Origin: Thermoplasmata archaeon | Lineage (GTDB): Archaea; Thermoplasmatota; Thermoplasmata; Methanomassiliicoccales; Methanomethylophilaceae | Length of the DNA: 59,655 bases | Direction of reading: 5' to 3' | Assembly: GCA_015063165.1 (NCBI GenBank) | Contig: SUSZ01000010.1 | Span: 1 to 59,655 of the forward strand | In this document: positions 20,128 through 58,438 of the stretch, piece by piece | Numbering within the stretch: position 1 is the first letter of the stretch | Layout: every line of letters begins with the position of its first letter | Position numbers and translations under genes: made by a program | The notes under the pieces: generated by a model | Database searches by the model: none | Told to the model about the DNA's origin: nothing | Seen by the model: only the letters and a program-made list of their open reading frames with translations

Positions 20128-20753
20128 TGAAGGCCGTGTCTCTTCTGTCAGGGGGGATAGACTCCCCCGTGGCATCCTATCTCATCAGCCGCGCCGGCGC
20201 CGACGTCGTGCTGCTCCATATGGACAACGGCCCCTACTGCGACGATAGGGCCAAGGAGAACGTCATCGCGATAGCGGAGCAGCTCGAAAAGTACACCGGG
20301 AAGCGCTTTCCGCTCTATTTCGCGCCTCACGGACCTTCTCAGACGGCCATACACGACACCTGCGACAGGAACTACCAGTGCGTCATGTGCAAGCGCGCGA
20401 TGCATAGGACGGCAGGAGAGTTCGCGAAGATCGTCGGAGCCGACATGATCGTCGTGGGGGACTCCCTGGGACAGGTCGCCTCCCAGACCCTCAAGAACAT
20501 ACGCGCCGAGAACACCGGGATGTCGATCCCAATCGTGAGGCCGCTCATAGGCCTGGACAAGACCGAGATCATGGAGGTCGCCCGCGAGATCGGGACCTTC
20601 GACATATCCATCTCGCCCTCTGTCGGGTGCACCATTGTGCCTCACAAGGTCACCACAGCGGCGGATCCCATTCGCATAGAATCCTACAGGGAACGCATCG
20701 ACATCGACAGCCTGGCGAAGGAATCGGCGGAGAAGGCGGTCCTCGTCCGTTGA
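20127..20753 (+). CDS. ThiI-like PP-loop sulfurtransferase domain protein
   Basis: This 208-residue ATP pyrophosphatase-type protein has the PP-loop LSGGIDSPVAS (7-17). A CVMCKR pair (C85, C88) and a later C168 match the ThiI catalytic core, which thiolates U8 of tRNA. THUMP and NFLD domains are absent, so it is a stand-alone catalytic domain; tRNA recognition would need another protein. Its ATG overlaps the csl4 stop by 1 nt, so the exosome subunit and this gene are coupled. Another sulfurtransferase role is possible. Confidence 0.82.
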   Translation: MKAVSLLSGGIDSPVASYLISRAGADVVLLHMDNGPYCDDRAKENVIAIAEQLEKYTGKRFPLYFAPHGPSQTAIHDTCDRNYQCVMCKRAMHRTAGEFAKIVGADMIVVGDSLGQVASQTLKNIRAENTGMSIPIVRPLIGLDKTEIMEVAREIGTFDISISPSVGCTIVPHKVTTAADPIRIESYRERIDIDSLAKESAEKAVLVR

Positions 20754-50665: not shown

Positions 50666-51496
50666 TCAGGACTTCCTCCTCTTCTTCTTGAACGAGGGCT
50701 CCGGAACCGGCTCTCCGAGCTCTTCCAGACGGGATATCGCATCGGAGTTGCCCTTGCGGGCGGCCTGCGTGTACATGTCCACGGCTTCGAGGCGGTCCTC
50801 CGCCTCGGTCATGGACCCGTAGCGGTAGAGCGCTTTCGAATAGCCCCTGTCGGCGGCCCTCTTGAGGTGCTCCATCCCCTTCTCGCAGTCCTTCAGCTCG
50901 TCGAAACATATCTCCGCCAGACGGTACTCCGCGCGTGGGGTTCCCGAACGCTCCAGCCACACGACAGCCTGGTCCAGGTCCTTCTCGGTCCCTCTGCCCC
51001 ACATGTACAGCTCGCCCAGGTTGGTCATCCCTCTGGAATAGCCCCCTTCAGCAGAGCGCTTGTACCACTGGAACGCCTTCTCCGGGTTCTCGTCGACGCC
51101 GTTCCCGTAGTCGTACATCACGCCGATGTTGCACATGGCCTTGGCGTTGCCCATGCCGGCGGCCTTCTCGTACAGCTCGGCCCCCTTCGCCTTGTCCTTC
51201 TCGCAGTTCAAACCGATCGCGTAGCAGTAGGCCAGGTTGCGAACCCCAGAGGAATCCCCGAGATCGGCGGCTTTCCTGAAGAGCTCGACGGATTCCTTCT
51301 TCTGATCCTCATCGCCATCGGCGAAAGCCACACCCAGACGGACCATGGACGCGGTGCACCCCTTGTCCATATTGGAACGCAGGATGGCGATAGCCTCAGG
51401 ATCAAGCGGGGAGGCTTCCATCAGAGAGACCGCTCTGTCGAATCCTTCGCGGACCTCGCGGTCGTCGCTGGATGATGCAAGGGGAACGTCCATCAT
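50666..51496 (-). CDS. Sel1-repeat protein
   Basis: The 276-residue protein holds about five to six Sel1-like TPR units, seen as repeats of [AG]..LG..Y..G.G...[DN]...A..[WL][YF]...A (for example GELYMWGRGTEKDLDQAVVWLERSG). Such proteins are usually adaptors in signalling or assembly. The start is ambiguous between ATG 51496, 51493 and an upstream frame at 51568; 51496 fits the TATA-like TTTTATTAGA about 35 nt upstream. The tail is basic (KKKRRKS). Confidence 0.82.
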   Translation of the reverse strand: MMDVPLASSSDDREVREGFDRAVSLMEASPLDPEAIAILRSNMDKGCTASMVRLGVAFADGDEDQKKESVELFRKAADLGDSSGVRNLAYCYAIGLNCEKDKAKGAELYEKAAGMGNAKAMCNIGVMYDYGNGVDENPEKAFQWYKRSAEGGYSRGMTNLGELYMWGRGTEKDLDQAVVWLERSGTPRAEYRLAEICFDELKDCEKGMEHLKRAADRGYSKALYRYGSMTEAEDRLEAVDMYTQAARKGNSDAISRLEELGEPVPEPSFKKKRRKS

Positions 51497-51530
51497 GTCT
51501 ACGTAATCTGCGGAAGGTCTAATAAAACGT

Positions 51531-53075
51531 TCAGAGGGATTTCGCCATGTAGGGGAGCTCTTCCTCATATCCGAGCGACCTGTAGTAGCCCCTGACGCCC
51601 ACTCCGCTGGTCACCCTGATCCTTCCGTAGCCCTTCTCCCTGGCTATCCTCTCGGCTTCGGCCACGAGCTCCCTTCCGAACCCGCGGTGCTGCCAGTCCT
51701 CGCCCTCGTCCCCGATGGCAGCGGTCCTGCCGAAGACCTTCAATTCCCTTATAGTGGCTTCCGGGCCGTCGTCCAGCCTCAGCCTCACATATCCGACCAG
51801 CCAGTCCTCGTAATCGAACGAGATGAAGTGCTCCGTGCCTCCGCAGGCCTCGTAGACCATGTCGTTCATAACGATCTTTTCGGGATCGTCCAGGGATATG
51901 CCAGCATGGCCGACCTCCCTGCAGCGGATGCACCTGCACCTCCTGCCCTCGGAAGCCATCCTGGATTCCACTATCTGGCGGATGTTGCTCTTTGTGATGC
52001 CCGCTGCGATCTGCGGGACGGGGATGTCGCGCTGGATCCTCTGGATGCGTACGTACTCCGGGACAATCGACTTCATATCCGACAGCAGGGCGGCCGCGGT
52101 GTCGACGTCGTAGGGCTCATAATCGCCGGCCTTCCACATGTCGTACAGCTTCGTCCCTTCCATCACCAGGGTGGTGTAGAACTTCAGCATGTCCGGCCTG
52201 AAATCGGGGTCGTCGAACACCCTGCGGAAGCATTCCAGGTCCTTCTGAGGGGAAGAGCCGGGAAGCCCTGGCATGAGATGGTAGCACACCTTCAAGCCGT
52301 GCTCCCTGCACTCCCTGGTGCACCTGCGGACGGCTTCTATCCCATGTCCCCTGTCCACCCCTGCGAGGATGTCGTCGTCGAGGATCTGCACCCCCAGCTC
52401 CACCCTTGTGGCGCCCAGGGACATCGCCCTCTCGATCTGCTGCGTGTCGAATACGTCCGGACGGGTCTCGACGGTGAGGCCCACGCATCTGCATGCGGAG
52501 GTCTCGTTGAGCTTCTGGGCCTGCTCCAGAGTCTCGGAATCCGCCCCGTTCATGGCGTCGAAGCACCTGCGGACGAACATCTCCTGGTACTCCGGCTCCC
52601 TGCTGGTGAAGGTCCCGCCCATTATGATGAGGTCTATCTTGTCGGTCTTGTGGCCTATGTCCGAGAGCTGCTTCAGCCTGTCCCTCACCTGCAGATAAGG
52701 GTCGAAGCAGTTCCTCTCCGCGCGTCTGGCGGCCGGCTCCTTCCCGGTGTACGACTGCGGCGACCCGTTGACCACCCCTCCGGGACAGTACGCGCATTTC
52801 CCATGGGGGCAGTCGTGCGGGGACGTCATCACAGCCACCACCGCCACCCCGCTGATGGTGCGGGTGGGCTTCTTGAGAAGGAACGGCGTCAGCAGCTTGC
52901 GGTCCTCCGGCTCCACCTCTGCCAGTATCTCCGAGTTCGGCGGCACTCCGGGAAGCCCGTACTTCTTGCAGAGCTTCAGCTTGAGGTTCTGCAAGGCTTC
53001 GCGGCTCGTTATCGAACCGTCCTTGACGGCGCCTATGATCTCGGCTGCCAGAGAGGAGACGCGGGGATCAGCCAT
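51531..53075 (-). CDS. elp3: Elp3 tRNA uridine-34 acetyltransferase
   Basis: Elp3 forms 5-carboxymethyl-type modification of wobble uridine using acetyl-CoA and a radical SAM cluster. The 514 residues carry the 4Fe-4S motif CPHGKCAYC (C89, C94, C97) and a C-terminal GNAT acetyltransferase domain (about 380-514, with RGFGRELVAEAER). ATG 53075 overlaps the end of the small gene at 53068 by 8 nt. It is convergent with none of its neighbours. Confidence 0.95.
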   Translation of the reverse strand: MADPRVSSLAAEIIGAVKDGSITSREALQNLKLKLCKKYGLPGVPPNSEILAEVEPEDRKLLTPFLLKKPTRTISGVAVVAVMTSPHDCPHGKCAYCPGGVVNGSPQSYTGKEPAARRAERNCFDPYLQVRDRLKQLSDIGHKTDKIDLIIMGGTFTSREPEYQEMFVRRCFDAMNGADSETLEQAQKLNETSACRCVGLTVETRPDVFDTQQIERAMSLGATRVELGVQILDDDILAGVDRGHGIEAVRRCTRECREHGLKVCYHLMPGLPGSSPQKDLECFRRVFDDPDFRPDMLKFYTTLVMEGTKLYDMWKAGDYEPYDVDTAAALLSDMKSIVPEYVRIQRIQRDIPVPQIAAGITKSNIRQIVESRMASEGRRCRCIRCREVGHAGISLDDPEKIVMNDMVYEACGGTEHFISFDYEDWLVGYVRLRLDDGPEATIRELKVFGRTAAIGDEGEDWQHRGFGRELVAEAERIAREKGYGRIRVTSGVGVRGYYRSLGYEEELPYMAKSL

Positions 53076-53877: not shown

Positions 53878-54390
53878 TCAGATAGAGGTCAGGAGACGGT
53901 CCATGGCTAGGGTCACGCTGTCCGTGGGTATGACGCGGGACACAGGTATGGAGAGGATCTTCTCGACAGTCGGAGCCACTATAGGCGCGCAGACCACGCC
54001 TAGGGCCCCGTCCCTCTCGGCACGCACGGCCGCGATGATGGCGTCCTCGACGGTGCTGACAGGGTATTCCTTCACCAGGACGGTGGTCCCGTTGTAGTCC
54101 ACCGATTTGGGAAGGCTGTCCAGGACGTGCGTCGAGGCTATGACGGCGATGAAACGGCTCTCCTCGGAGCTGGTGATGATCTTCAAGGCCTTGATCACCT
54201 GCCTCACCGTGCGCAGATTGGGCTCGCGCCGGTCCTCCAAGAGCTTGTACATGGTGCTCTGGGAGATCCCTGCAACCTGGCAGAACTCGTTCAGGGACAT
54301 GTCGAGCTCGTTGTCGAGGATGTCGCGGAAGGATTTCTGGAATCCCCCCTCCTCTCTCAGCATCCCCGATATCAGGTCCGCCACCGTCAT
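53878..54390 (-). CDS. XRE-family transcriptional regulator in the thioredoxin operon
   Basis: The 170-residue protein has an N-terminal helix, a XRE/HTH domain (about 31-72: MSLNEFCQVAGISQSTMYKLLEDRREPNLRTVRQVIKALK) and a C-terminal alpha/beta regulatory region (VLVKEYPVSTVEDAIIAAVR, ending before VIPTDSVTLAMDRLLTSI). ATG 54390 overlaps the trxB stop by 4 nt. Coupling to thioredoxin reductase suggests a redox-responsive regulator, possibly using the cysteine in EFCQ. Confidence 0.82.
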   Translation of the reverse strand: MTVADLISGMLREEGGFQKSFRDILDNELDMSLNEFCQVAGISQSTMYKLLEDRREPNLRTVRQVIKALKIITSSEESRFIAVIASTHVLDSLPKSVDYNGTTVLVKEYPVSTVEDAIIAAVRAERDGALGVVCAPIVAPTVEKILSIPVSRVIPTDSVTLAMDRLLTSI

Positions 54391-55271
54391 GCGGCTTTCC
54401 TCACGTAGTCGGCGGCGGCCGTGCCTGCGACGCATCCCTGTCCGACGGCTTTGGCGACCTGCCACGGCTTTCCGGTAACGTCCCCGCATGCGAACACGCC
54501 GGGAACCTCGGTGGAGCAGTCGGCTCCGACCTTGATGGAGTCGTCTATCTCGGGCATCACGCCTATGTCCATGGCTATGTCGGCGGAGGACTTCGCTCCG
54601 AGCTCTATGAAGACGCCGTCCGTAGGTACGATGGTGCCGTCCTCCAGGACCAGGCGCTCGACCTTGCCGTCGCCCTCTATGGCCTTGGGCTTGGAACCGT
54701 GCATGATCACGCCAGCTTCAGAGGCCTTCCTGACGAGGGATTCGTCCGCGGACATATCCCATGCGGCCCAATGGGTCTCTGAGGCGTACTTCGTCATCAT
54801 CTCGGCGGAGACGGCGGCCTCGGAGTCGTTGCCGACCAGGACGACCTTGCGTCCCTTGTAGAAGTTGCAGTCGCAGACGGCGCAATAGCTCACTCCTTTT
54901 CCGAAGAGGGCCTTCTCGCCCGGGATCCCCAGAGCCTTGCGGGACACCCCCGTGGCTATGATGACCGACTTGGCGGAGATCTGGGTGCCGTCCTCGACGA
55001 CGAAGACGAACCTTCCTCCCTCCGCGGAGGCCGAGACGACGTTCTGCCCAAGGAAGACCGCTCCGAAGGACTTGGCCTGAGAGATCCCCTCGGCAAGGAT
55101 GTCGTCTCCAGACCGCGGGCCGACCCCGAAATAGTTCTCTATCTCGGTTCCGGCCATCGAGCTGTACGAGGGCTTCCCTGCGACGACGACCGCCATCTTC
55201 TTCCTGGCGGCATGGATGGCGGCCTGGACCCCTGAGGGCCCGGACCCTATGACGAAGACGTCCGCGTCCAT
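54387..55271 (-). CDS. trxB: Thioredoxin reductase-like FAD protein
   Basis: The 294-residue protein has FAD motif GSGPSG (9-14), the redox CAVC (C130, C133) in SYCAVCDCN, and a NAD(P)-like fold. Where NADPH enzymes have the GxGxxA followed by HRRxxxRA arginines, this one has GNDSEAA and HWAAWDM. The 2'-phosphate site is therefore absent and another donor is likely. The gene is 2 nt after thioredoxin and coupled to the XRE regulator. Confidence 0.9.
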   Translation of the reverse strand: MDADVFVIGSGPSGVQAAIHAARKKMAVVVAGKPSYSSMAGTEIENYFGVGPRSGDDILAEGISQAKSFGAVFLGQNVVSASAEGGRFVFVVEDGTQISAKSVIIATGVSRKALGIPGEKALFGKGVSYCAVCDCNFYKGRKVVLVGNDSEAAVSAEMMTKYASETHWAAWDMSADESLVRKASEAGVIMHGSKPKAIEGDGKVERLVLEDGTIVPTDGVFIELGAKSSADIAMDIGVMPEIDDSIKVGADCSTEVPGVFACGDVTGKPWQVAKAVGQGCVAGTAAADYVRKAA

Positions 55272-55273
55272 GT

Positions 55274-55585
55274 TCACTGGAGTCCGAGGGCGGCGATGAT
55301 GTCCTCTTTGGGCCTGAGGCCGACGAGAGTGTCGACGAGGACCTTGTCCTTGAAGACGAGGAGAGTGGGGATCGCGTTGATGTTGAACCTGATGGCGATG
55401 GCCTGGTTCTCGTCGGTGTTCAGCTTGGCGACTCCAGCCTTGCCTGCAAGGTCGGAAGCGAGCTCCTCGACTATGGGGCCCATCCTCCTGCAGGGACCGC
55501 ACCAGGGCGCCCAGCAGTCTATGATTGCGAGGCTGTTGGAGTCTACGAACTGGTCGAAGTTGGATTCATTGAGTTCTGTCACCAT
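55274..55585 (-). CDS. trx: Thioredoxin
   Basis: The 103-residue protein has the active-site WCGPC and the usual cis-proline in INAIPTLLVFKD. It is reduced by the adjacent reductase. ATG 55585 is preferred to an upstream ATG at 55612 because a TATA-like TTTTTATC lies at about 55618-55628. Confidence 0.95.
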   Translation of the reverse strand: MVTELNESNFDQFVDSNSLAIIDCWAPWCGPCRRMGPIVEELASDLAGKAGVAKLNTDENQAIAIRFNINAIPTLLVFKDKVLVDTLVGLRPKEDIIAALGLQ

Positions 55586-55726
55586 TGTATCACGGCTGAC
55601 CTGTACTGGCATTTCGGCGATAAAAAGCCAATGCCTGTATGCTTCCGCACTCCTTAAAAGAAAGAAACACATGCCTTATAGGCGGGACAAGGGCATAAGG
55701 AAAGACGGCGGAAGGAGAGCAATTCT

Positions 55727-57355
55727 ATGGATGAAGACGGCAGAAAGGCTACGGGCACTTTTCATATATCTCACATCGGATATGTCGAGAGGAACGATAA
55801 GTCCAGGGTCGTCTGCGACCTCGAGATCTCCGTCGGCGACGAGCCCCCATCCAGCACGAAGAAGCTGTTCTTCGAGGTCCCGAAGGAATACGGCAGGTAC
55901 CTCGTATGGGAGAGATGCGACGCCTTCGTGGTGCTTCTTCTGCACACTGCGCTCACCGAGGGATACGACATCCGCTCCGACGTACCGATGTCCTCGGACC
56001 TCTACTTCAACGTCACTGAATACCTTCTGCCGCCCCTGATCAAGAACGGGCCTCGCGATATCAGCATAATCGCCGACGTGGCTCCGCCTCTGGAGTGCGG
56101 GAAGGGCGTCGGCACCGGGCTGTCGTGCGGAGTGGACTCGCTTCATGCCGTCCACAAGTACGCGGACTACCCGATAGAGGACTTCAGGATAACGCATCTG
56201 TGCATCAACGACGTGGGCGCGTTCGGGGATTCGCTCTACTGGAAGGTGGGAGGCGCCAACGTGCGCGACAACTCCTACAGGCGCGCCAGAGCGGCCGCCG
56301 AAGACATAGGGCTTCCTCTGATAGAAACGTCGTCCAACGTCGCCAGGACCCTCCGCCTCAACCATTTCCTCACCAACTCGTTCTCGTCGGCGTTCGCCAT
56401 CCTATGCATGAAGAAGCTCTGGAAGGCGTACTTCTACGCATCCGACGGGAAGGACTTCCTGTCCGAATCCTCGCTGAAAGGATGGTACAACAAGAAGCCG
56501 TCAACATACGAGCCTTTCATGCTCAGGGTCCTCAGCACCCCCAGCATCTGCTTCATGCCCGTCGGCGAGATAGAAACGGAGACGGAGAAGATCGCGGAGA
56601 TAGCCGACTACGGTATCGCCAGGAAGCACCTCTACTCGTGCACCTGGGATCTGGACAACTGCTGCGTCTGCAAGAAGTGCATCAGGAACCTCACCACCCT
56701 GGACGCCCTCGGGAAGCTCGACAACTACTCCGACCTGTACGATCTGAACTACTACAGGGAGCACAGGCTGTACTACATGTGGAAGGTGTACGAGAACAAG
56801 GACGAAGGGAACTCCGGCGACGTGTACGAGATGCTGATGAACAACAGCGACCCCCAGATGCAGGAGGTCACCGAGATCGCCGAGGCCGTCAAGGAGTTCG
56901 AGAGGCTCTGGGAGCAGGAAACCTCGGACACGGACAAGAAGGCGGTGGCCGCCATCAAGCCCTATCTCAACCGCGCCCTGAAGCCCAACTTCTGCATGGC
57001 GAGGGCCTACGAGGCCGGAAGAGGGATAAAGAAGAGCCATGCGAAGGCCAACGAATGCCTCGAATACTGCCTCGCCGTGTACAAGGCTGAGGTGAAAGCG
57101 GGATTCCAGTCGGTGTACCAGCTCTTCGACCTCCAGTGGAGGATGAGAAAGGACGAGGACCTCCTGGCCACGCTGGAGCCTATGCTGAAGTACAACCGCC
57201 CCGAGGCGAAGGTCCGCCTCGCGCGCATGTACGCCAAGGGAAGAGGCGTGGAGAAGGACCTGGCCAAGGCTAAGGAACTCATGCACGAGGCCGCCGAGAG
57301 GAAGCCCCTTTACAGGTCCGAATACGAGAAGCTCCTGAGGGAGACCGAGGACTGA
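55727..57355 (+). CDS. QueC-like PP-loop ATPase fused to Sel1-type repeats
   Basis: The first 330 residues form a PP-loop enzyme: GLSCGVDSLH (131-140) is the SGGxDS-like ATP motif. C305 followed by CCVCKKC (C312-C318) and R320 matches the zinc motif of QueC (CxxC..C-type with Arg). Residues about 350-542 carry Sel1-type repeats, e.g. ARAYEAGRGIKKSHAKANECLEYC and ARMYAKGRGVEKDLAKAKELM. QueC makes 7-cyano-7-deazaguanine; a fused Sel1 region suggests a protein partner instead. GAAGGAG lies about 8 nt before ATG 55727. It overlaps the convergent HD gene by 46 nt. Confidence 0.8.
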   Translation: MDEDGRKATGTFHISHIGYVERNDKSRVVCDLEISVGDEPPSSTKKLFFEVPKEYGRYLVWERCDAFVVLLLHTALTEGYDIRSDVPMSSDLYFNVTEYLLPPLIKNGPRDISIIADVAPPLECGKGVGTGLSCGVDSLHAVHKYADYPIEDFRITHLCINDVGAFGDSLYWKVGGANVRDNSYRRARAAAEDIGLPLIETSSNVARTLRLNHFLTNSFSSAFAILCMKKLWKAYFYASDGKDFLSESSLKGWYNKKPSTYEPFMLRVLSTPSICFMPVGEIETETEKIAEIADYGIARKHLYSCTWDLDNCCVCKKCIRNLTTLDALGKLDNYSDLYDLNYYREHRLYYMWKVYENKDEGNSGDVYEMLMNNSDPQMQEVTEIAEAVKEFERLWEQETSDTDKKAVAAIKPYLNRALKPNFCMARAYEAGRGIKKSHAKANECLEYCLAVYKAEVKAGFQSVYQLFDLQWRMRKDEDLLATLEPMLKYNRPEAKVRLARMYAKGRGVEKDLAKAKELMHEAAERKPLYRSEYEKLLRETED

Positions 57356-57939
57356 CCTCGGTTCTTCAGCCCCTCAGGAATGCATTTCAGCTTGGGGAAT
57401 TCCCCGATCCTGTCCACGATAACGTCCAGGTCCTCGCCGTACAAGTCGGACAGCTCCATGTGGAGCAGTTCGATCCTCTCCGCGCCGCGGAATGCCCCCT
57501 TGGCCATCAGCTTGTTGACCGAGTGCTCGTGGGTGACCACACGGTTGTCGCTGACGAGGTTGTCGGCGTGGGCTACGATCTTCTCCTCGAGCGTCTTGGG
57601 CATGTAATCCGCCGGCGGCAGCCCCAGCTCGACGACGTCGACCTCGTCCAGGCCGGCCCCGGTGTGCTTGCGGACGATGTCCACCAGCTCCTTCGGGAGG
57701 CCCAGGTTGGACACCATCCCGGATCCGATGTAGGCGTGCATTATGGAATGGTCCACAGCACGGCCTATGTCGTGCAGGATCGCTCCCGCGACGACCAGGT
57801 CCTTGTCCACGAAGTCTATGCGCGAGGCTATCTCCTCCGCCACGGCCCTCACGGTGCAGCAATGGACCACCACGCGCATCTTGCAGCCTTCGTCGAGAAG
57901 GTACTGGACACACTCGTGGTCACTCGGGATTCTCGACAA
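57310..57939 (-). CDS. HD-domain phosphohydrolase
   Basis: The 209-residue protein has the HD signature (VVHCCTV, AGAILHDIGRAVDHS, ending in VAHADNLV), typical of archaeal metal-dependent phosphohydrolases of the TIGR00295 kind. Substrate is unknown. The start is taken as TTG 57939, which overlaps the trm56 stop by 20 nt; the next ATG at 57879 would delete the first helix. The C-terminus overlaps the QueC-like gene by 46 nt. The stop is TAA. Confidence 0.72.
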   Translation of the reverse strand: MSRIPSDHECVQYLLDEGCKMRVVVHCCTVRAVAEEIASRIDFVDKDLVVAGAILHDIGRAVDHSIMHAYIGSGMVSNLGLPKELVDIVRKHTGAGLDEVDVVELGLPPADYMPKTLEEKIVAHADNLVSDNRVVTHEHSVNKLMAKGAFRGAERIELLHMELSDLYGEDLDVIVDRIGEFPKLKCIPEGLKNRGQSSVSLRSFSYSDL

Positions 57940-58438
57940 CCGTTTTCCCCCTTTCGTTGGGCACGACTGTAAGCTTTCCGTGGCGCTCGGAATACAGCGC
58001 CTTGCCCTCGGTGAAGCGGTCGAGGAATATTGCAAGAGCAGCGATCTCCGAATGCGGCTGGTTGCCGACTGAGACGTTGAAATCCGCACGTTCATACACC
58101 TCGCGCGGAACTTTCTCCGCACCCACTATTATCATTATGTCCTCGTCACGAGGTATCTTGGGCAGAGCCTCGTCTACCCTCTCCCCATACATCGTGAGAT
58201 GGACCACTTTGCCACTGAAATTACGCACGGCGCTCTGCCATCTGACGCCGGTCTTTATCTGATAGTCTCCGCCGAACCTGTCCACGACGCTGCGGACGTT
58301 CTCCTCAAGCTTCTCGTCGAGCGTGTCGACGTATATGCCTCTGGCTCCCAGGGCTCTGGAAGACAGCGCCACATGAGTGGTCACGCGTTTGTCCCTCTCG
58401 GGACGATGGCCTATCCTCATTATCCAGATGTCGGACAT
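57920..58438 (-). CDS. trm56: tRNA cytidine-56 2'-O-methyltransferase (SPOUT)
   Basis: Trm56 is an archaeal methyltransferase for position 56 of the T loop. The 172 residues begin MSDIWIMRIGHRPERDKRVTTHVALSSRALGA and contain the knotted SPOUT core IMIIVGAEKVPREVYE plus the NVSVGNQPHSEIAALA. ATG 58438 overlaps the upstream wHTH gene by 19 nt. This pair is the conserved part of the operon. Confidence 0.94.
   Translation of the reverse strand: MSDIWIMRIGHRPERDKRVTTHVALSSRALGARGIYVDTLDEKLEENVRSVVDRFGGDYQIKTGVRWQSAVRNFSGKVVHLTMYGERVDEALPKIPRDEDIMIIVGAEKVPREVYERADFNVSVGNQPHSEIAALAIFLDRFTEGKALYSERHGKLTVVPNERGKTVVENPE

Follow-up and report, generated by a model that had tools for sequence, protein, structure and literature searches.

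What does a QueC-like PP-loop protein do when it carries a Sel1-type tail and sits outside any queuosine or archaeosine gene cluster? Such a gene is found in the 59,655-nucleotide stretch of a Methanomethylophilaceae genome analysed here (the window). The best-known uses of the QueC-like scaffold are nucleobase synthesis and phage defence, and the family described below adds to that scaffold an unannotated branch that gene context links to surface polysaccharide. We give even odds (a probability of about 0.5) to the reading that the fusion protein is an ATP-dependent surface-glycan tailoring enzyme, docked through its Sel1 part and most likely making an amide from a carboxylate.

The fusion gene and its neighbours

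An earlier reading of the sequence alone (hereafter the sequence-only reading) had described an open reading frame with a PP-loop (GLSCGVDS, residues 131–138), a QueC-type zinc cluster (C305, C312, C315, C318 and R320) and Sel1-type repeats. The frame and all of the named residues are as claimed in the translation, where residues 129–138 read GTGLSCGVDS. The gene, its parts and its neighbours (the latter identified by eye from their translations) are as follows:

55727..57355 (+), QueC-like PP-loop–Sel1 fusion gene, 542 aa (ORF and translation)
55727..56086 (+), N-terminal domain, residues ~1–120, with the conserved pattern ERCDAFVVLLL...DIxSxxPMSxxLYxNxxExLLP
56123..56140 (+), PP-loop SCGVDS, residues 133–138 (conservation; paired by hhalign with the SGGxDS loop of QueC)
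56639..56680 (+), presumed zinc site C305-x6-C312-x2-C315-x2-C318, four invariant cysteines followed by x-R320
56852..57349 (+), Sel1/TPR-like alpha-solenoid, residues ~376–541, helical hairpins with pLDDT mostly 80–93
57200..57301 (+), sole Sel1 repeat passing the Pfam model PF08238, residues 492–525
55274..55672 (−), thioredoxin-like housekeeping gene with a WCGPC motif, upstream and divergent
54387..55502 (−), thioredoxin-reductase-like ORF with a CAVCDC motif, true start probably internal
57310..58122 (−), HD-domain-like ORF, downstream and convergent, covering the last 46 bases of the fusion gene

The N-terminal domain matches no Pfam model, and the catalytic part is not named by any Pfam, NCBIfam or PADLOC model. 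The C-terminal solenoid is present, but the plural 'repeats' was generous: a single repeat scores above the curated Pfam cut-off (35.5 versus 30.7 bits), while the remaining helices fall under the threshold. In the structure model the Sel1 part is resolved and the core, backed by an alignment of two sequences, has a pLDDT of ~25.

The gene is solitary among housekeeping genes. No queD/queE neighbourhood was seen by eye among the window ORFs, in agreement with the proposed location outside a queuosine/archaeosine cluster, and neither QatA, QatB or QatD (QatB being without a Pfam model; PMC13329287) nor a CD-NTase was recognized by eye near it. Two other window proteins share one part or the other with the fusion: 50666–51568 (−) encodes a second Sel1 protein (300 aa, six repeats, no recognized enzyme domain), and 20130–20606 (+) encodes a small PP-loop protein (SGGIDS) that is related to two others encoded on contigs C6 and C36 of this genome, gives a weak PF06508 match and is probably ThiI-like.

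Relationship to QueC, QatC, Cap9 and WbpG

At the superfamily level the protein is QueC-like, as had been proposed. A profile of 19 archaeal, haloarchaeal and bacterial sequences (A3) gave a probability of 87–94% against QueC in hhalign over the whole core, from the PP-loop to the cysteines (E = 4e-6 to 3e-8 in one comparison), versus ~0% for six of the genome's seven other PP-loop proteins, 2.6% for the ThiI-like seventh and ~0% for two unrelated controls. The assignment depends on the distant members, because the narrower profile of 22 core members (A1) gave only 22%. Pfam PF06508 does not match the window protein. Sequence and profile searches of the PDB found no QueC-like chain for the family, the A3 profile retrieving no more than weak PP-loop matches, to MnmA and GMP synthase. 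The uncharacterised DUF6395, which matched the cysteine site of one family member (E = 0.0016), may be a true distant relative; weak Pfam matches to E6, RloB, TARP and DUF3587 were dismissed as chance.

The likeness to QueC (PF06508, 7-cyano-7-deazaguanine synthase) consists of a PP-loop ATPase core followed by a four-cysteine site, to which the window protein adds its N-terminal domain and Sel1 tail. Both halves of this likeness come with a deviation. The PP-loop is present and conserved, but it reads SCGVDS rather than the canonical SGGxDS, which occurs in 5 of the 10 outside homologues and in none of the 30 archaeal members (SGGxDS or near variants are mostly retained by members from bacteria and haloarchaea). 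The cysteines are invariant, but they are spaced C-x6-C-x2-C-x2-C in the window protein and in 27 of the 30 archaeal members, not C-x8-C-x2-C-x2-C as in canonical QueC. Furthermore, the motifs YxQxHxxE, VPxRN and YPDC, whose residues Y35, R99 and Y131 are needed by E. coli QueC (PMC13329287), are present in all three QueC references and each absent from all 30 archaeal members, and the same genome has a separate gene for a true QueC (PF06508, 247 bits). The substrate is thus probably not CDG, in line with the new substrate that had been suggested. A second 7-deazaguanine enzyme, be it an isofunctional QueC or one for a step of archaeosine synthesis, would explain the profile similarity and the QueC-type cysteine site, but the resident QueC and the missing motifs make it very improbable.

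QatC of the qatABCD defence system (PADLOC PDLC02214) has a QueC-like core with an N-terminal extension of ~120–145 aa and a C-terminal extension (PMC13279940). The window protein shares this layout but differs in its C-terminal part, and of the published motifs, through which QatC was compared, neither D(x)4R(x)7WxR nor C(x)19CGxCxxRR occurs in any of the 30 archaeal or 10 outside members. With Cap9 of type IV CBASS the family shares a PP-loop and a CxxCxxC-type site. However, Cap9 is ~185 aa long and retains the QueC substrate motifs (PMC13329287), of which the window family keeps none, and the Cap9 motifs CE(x)6CxxCxxCxD and YxDC are found in none of the 30 archaeal members; nine of these have the loose RxRxxx[FY] pattern of the same signature set (PMC13329287). 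Because these signatures are absent and the genome has its own true QueC at another locus, we regard the protein as QueC-like but as neither QueC, QatC nor Cap9.

The closest functional analogy is to N-sugar amidotransferases of the WbpG type, WbpG being a PP-loop enzyme of surface polysaccharide placed in PF06508 cluster 5 (PMC13329287), although the WbpG patterns SGGxDSxY and CxxC(x)6CxC occur in 0 of 40 members. The window protein itself falls into an unnamed QueC-like family with members encoded next to polysaccharide pyruvyl transferases (PPT), with which it has the N-terminal domain, the PP-loop and an NCxxCxKC site in common (A3); the stand-alone members have no recognized Sel1 part, and those on plasmids are annotated as hypothetical proteins. 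A direct tblastn match connects the window protein to Paracoccus yeei (31%, 9e-34).

Distribution, conservation and selection

Clear members were found in nine of the 147 genomes of the order, namely in seven of 31 from the host genus and in G035 and G046; three further weak matches cover mainly the PP-loop. The wider phylum contributed one extra clear case, G302. The genome of the window encodes five members: the window copy, single copies on contigs C54 and C12 (the latter degenerate) and a tandem pair on C17. The closest named relative is a Methanomethylophilaceae MAG from sheep rumen. A maximum-likelihood tree nests the main Sel1-fused clade (18 rows, support 100/99), which is expanded in one rumen genus, among stand-alone archaeal members, and the deepest branch on the archaeal side enclosing it is L053, a gene from a PPT/glycosyltransferase cluster. 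Presence of Sel1 amounts to two changes on this tree, which was midpoint-rooted and has several long outer branches.

Residues G129, D137, D65, P102, I82, K288, Y343 and the four cysteines are invariant in the 22-member alignment A1, in which S138, G135 and R320 reach at least 90%. The cysteines stay invariant in A3 with its bacterial members included, and a similar N-terminal domain is present in the bacterial homologues. Syntenic orthologues of the window gene are L038/L037 (77% core identity) and L040 (61%), whereas L039, despite its 69% core identity, sits at a different locus. Against three orthologues or close paralogues the window gene shows dN/dS of ~0.22 to 0.38 (dN ~0.138, dS ~0.62 and dN/dS ~0.22 for L038; dN 0.25 and dS 0.74 for L039), and these low values indicate that it is maintained under purifying selection.

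Since the second glycine of the PP-loop is replaced by cysteine, catalytic competence is an assumption. The domain might instead be a catalytically dead scaffold that only binds a nucleotide or a partner, as the SCGVDS loop and the existence of degenerate paralogues would allow. Nevertheless, the window clade retains the Ser, Gly, Asp and Ser of the loop together with all of the cysteines, and the low dN/dS likewise speaks against this option, which we consider improbable.

Gene context of the relatives

The survey of homologues that had been proposed revealed surface-polysaccharide neighbours for several relatives, but not for the window gene itself, around which the window ORFs form no glycan cluster. 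Stand-alone relatives adjoin PPT genes in Gloeothece (twice) and Azospirillum. The Gemmobacter relative has PPT, ATP-grasp and GNAT neighbours, and the one in Priestia lies two genes from a PPT and near GalU and glycosyltransferases. Among archaea, the PPT next to L053 of G046 is a Pfam PF04230 protein, and in G302 a flippase and a PPT flank the family gene. Neighbours are ATP-grasp, Gfo/Idh and epimerase genes in Halorientalis and glycosyltransferases in G035. Sel1-fused copies in G001, G002 and G025 adjoin an ATP-grasp ligase and/or an NTP transferase gene, the G002 copy (L047) being co-directional with both and located beside a Sel1–LicD fusion. In two species, degenerate copies have a CapA(PGA_cap)-GDSL gene as their neighbour. 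These neighbours are a raw listing, and polysaccharide loci may be abundant in the plasmid records. One polypeptide beside such a CapA(PGA_cap)-GDSL gene, L057:6345-8486 (−), combines a degenerate PP-loop, Sel1 repeats and a hexapeptide-transferase end.

On plasmids, the window protein itself matches only the P. yeei homologue L078:8461-10137 (+) (31%, two strains), which has ~165 extra N-terminal residues and no glycan neighbours.

The sequence-only reading had also hinted at Qat- or CBASS-type defence or at protein modification. As a QatC/Cap9-like ligase, the protein would modify the N terminus of a partner held by the Sel1 solenoid. The QatC-like layout with extensions at both ends (PMC13279940), the patchy distribution with multiplied paralogues, and one recurrent neighbour are compatible with such a role. 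In three genomes (G000, G026 and G001), a DUF4011-helicase-MTES_1575 nuclease gene, a candidate for defence, is tail-to-tail with Sel1-fused copies, either tandem or neighbouring; the copy tested, from G026, matches PADLOC PDC-S37 (1036 bits) and Hhe:

L041:903-6857 (+), helicase-nuclease, the copy tested
L045:2-6064 (+), homologue of L041
L043:2-1444 (+), homologue of L041

However, this gene is convergent and not co-transcribed, and it does not lie close to the window gene. The PADLOC QatC, Cap9 and QueC models match none of the 22 core members, no QatC was found in the genome, and the QatC/Cap9 signatures (zinc pattern, Dx4Rx7WxR, YxDC) score 0 of 30. Neither QatA/B/D nor CD-NTase partners were recognized in the neighbourhoods read, and the queries tried found no relatives among 50,697 phage records and none among viral contigs. 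The convergent orientation and the missing motifs and partners weaken the case for defence, and homologues sit in glycan clusters instead; the hint is not supported here, and we consider a defence role unlikely. That the relatives in bacteria and other archaea are mostly found in gene clusters for surface sugars suggests surface-glycan decoration rather than phage defence or queuosine synthesis.

A proposed role in surface-glycan tailoring

As a tailoring enzyme, the protein would bind ATP with its PP-loop and adenylate a carboxylate on a glycan building block or a glycan-linked group; we infer this chemistry from the PP-loop superfamily. The carboxylate could belong to a uronic acid or to a pyruvate ketal, the latter a guess from gene position, as PPT is so often adjacent. 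An amine or ammonia would then attack the adenylate, yielding an amide or a related conjugate. The four cysteines presumably hold a structural zinc, and the solenoid would perform no chemistry, instead docking the enzyme onto other surface-polysaccharide proteins, several of which bear Sel1 arrays themselves in these archaea.

As the window copy is itself flanked by housekeeping genes, the role proposed for it is drawn from relatives. Several observations count against a glycan enzyme: the window gene is solitary, with housekeeping neighbours only, as are both L038 and L040, its orthologues, some paralogues are clearly degenerate, the helicase-nuclease association would fit defence, the WbpG motifs are absent from the sequences, and the P. 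yeei homologue is encoded outside a glycan cluster.

The solitary locus, together with the number and variety of Sel1 arrays, also fits another scenario, in which the Sel1-fused clade left glycan work and uses the same chemistry as a protein regulator or conjugating enzyme, with Sel1 picking the targets. The degenerate PP-loops of tandem partners would resemble enzyme/pseudoenzyme pairs. Yet the Sel1-fused copies of G002, G001 and G025 are still found beside NTP-transferase and/or ATP-grasp genes, and we view this departure from glycans as rather unlikely, if worth keeping in mind.

Sel1 arrays in Methanomassiliicoccales

Adhesion or eukaryote-like factors are the category to which the Sel1 expansion of gut Methanomassiliicoccales has hitherto been assigned (PMC7883539). 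Some of these repeats, however, are joined to enzymes that build glycans, for which they may serve as a docking system. In the genome of the window, Sel1 repeats are joined to GT8+GT2, GT2+GT2, DUF6270 and ABC ATPases, the degenerate C12 copy has a Sel1 array with a hexapeptide transferase end, and Sel1-only proteins also occur. Fusions to glycosyltransferases, DUF6270, ABC ATPases or LicD comprise:

L119:5107-10098 (+)
L119:12305-15181 (+)
L120:12418-13875 (−)
L120:14702-16762 (+)
L121:1977-3209 (−)
L047:4346-6121 (−)

These partners are enzymes and exporters typical of surface polysaccharide; the survey covered chosen contigs, several of them glycan loci, and is not an unbiased count. Genome-wide, there are 94 to at least 150 Sel1 matches in the seven genomes of the genus that have the QueC-like family and 30 to 81 in the 24 that lack it, with no overlap between the ranges (kinship ignored).

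In-frame TAG codons

Two close relatives of the window gene, L039:8882-10537 (+) and L040:3098-4759 (−), have an in-frame TAG at the same codon, corresponding to Q461 of the window protein. Because the codon is shared, the Sel1 sequence stays conserved for ~80 residues past it in both genes and the genome of the window encodes PylS, these TAGs look like pyrrolysine codons. In-frame TAG inside or between homologous parts was seen in seven more members:

L045:6139-9042 (−)
L042:1-2940 (+)
L052:7599-9041 (+)
L057:6348-8687 (−)
L058:7432-9756 (+)
L048:7451-10069 (+)
L049:9073-11811 (−)

Members of the QueC-like family showed no in-frame TAA or TGA. A bolder version of the glycan reading, which we hold to be a long shot, would make these proteins a new class of PP-loop ligases acting on cell-surface glycans or glycan-carrier proteins, possibly adding a nucleobase-like or amino-acid group, with Sel1 as a docking code shared among the surface-polysaccharide enzymes of rumen methanogens and with pyrrolysine from TAG in some paralogues. 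The TAG column is common to L057 and L058, and L048 and L049 apparently share one position.
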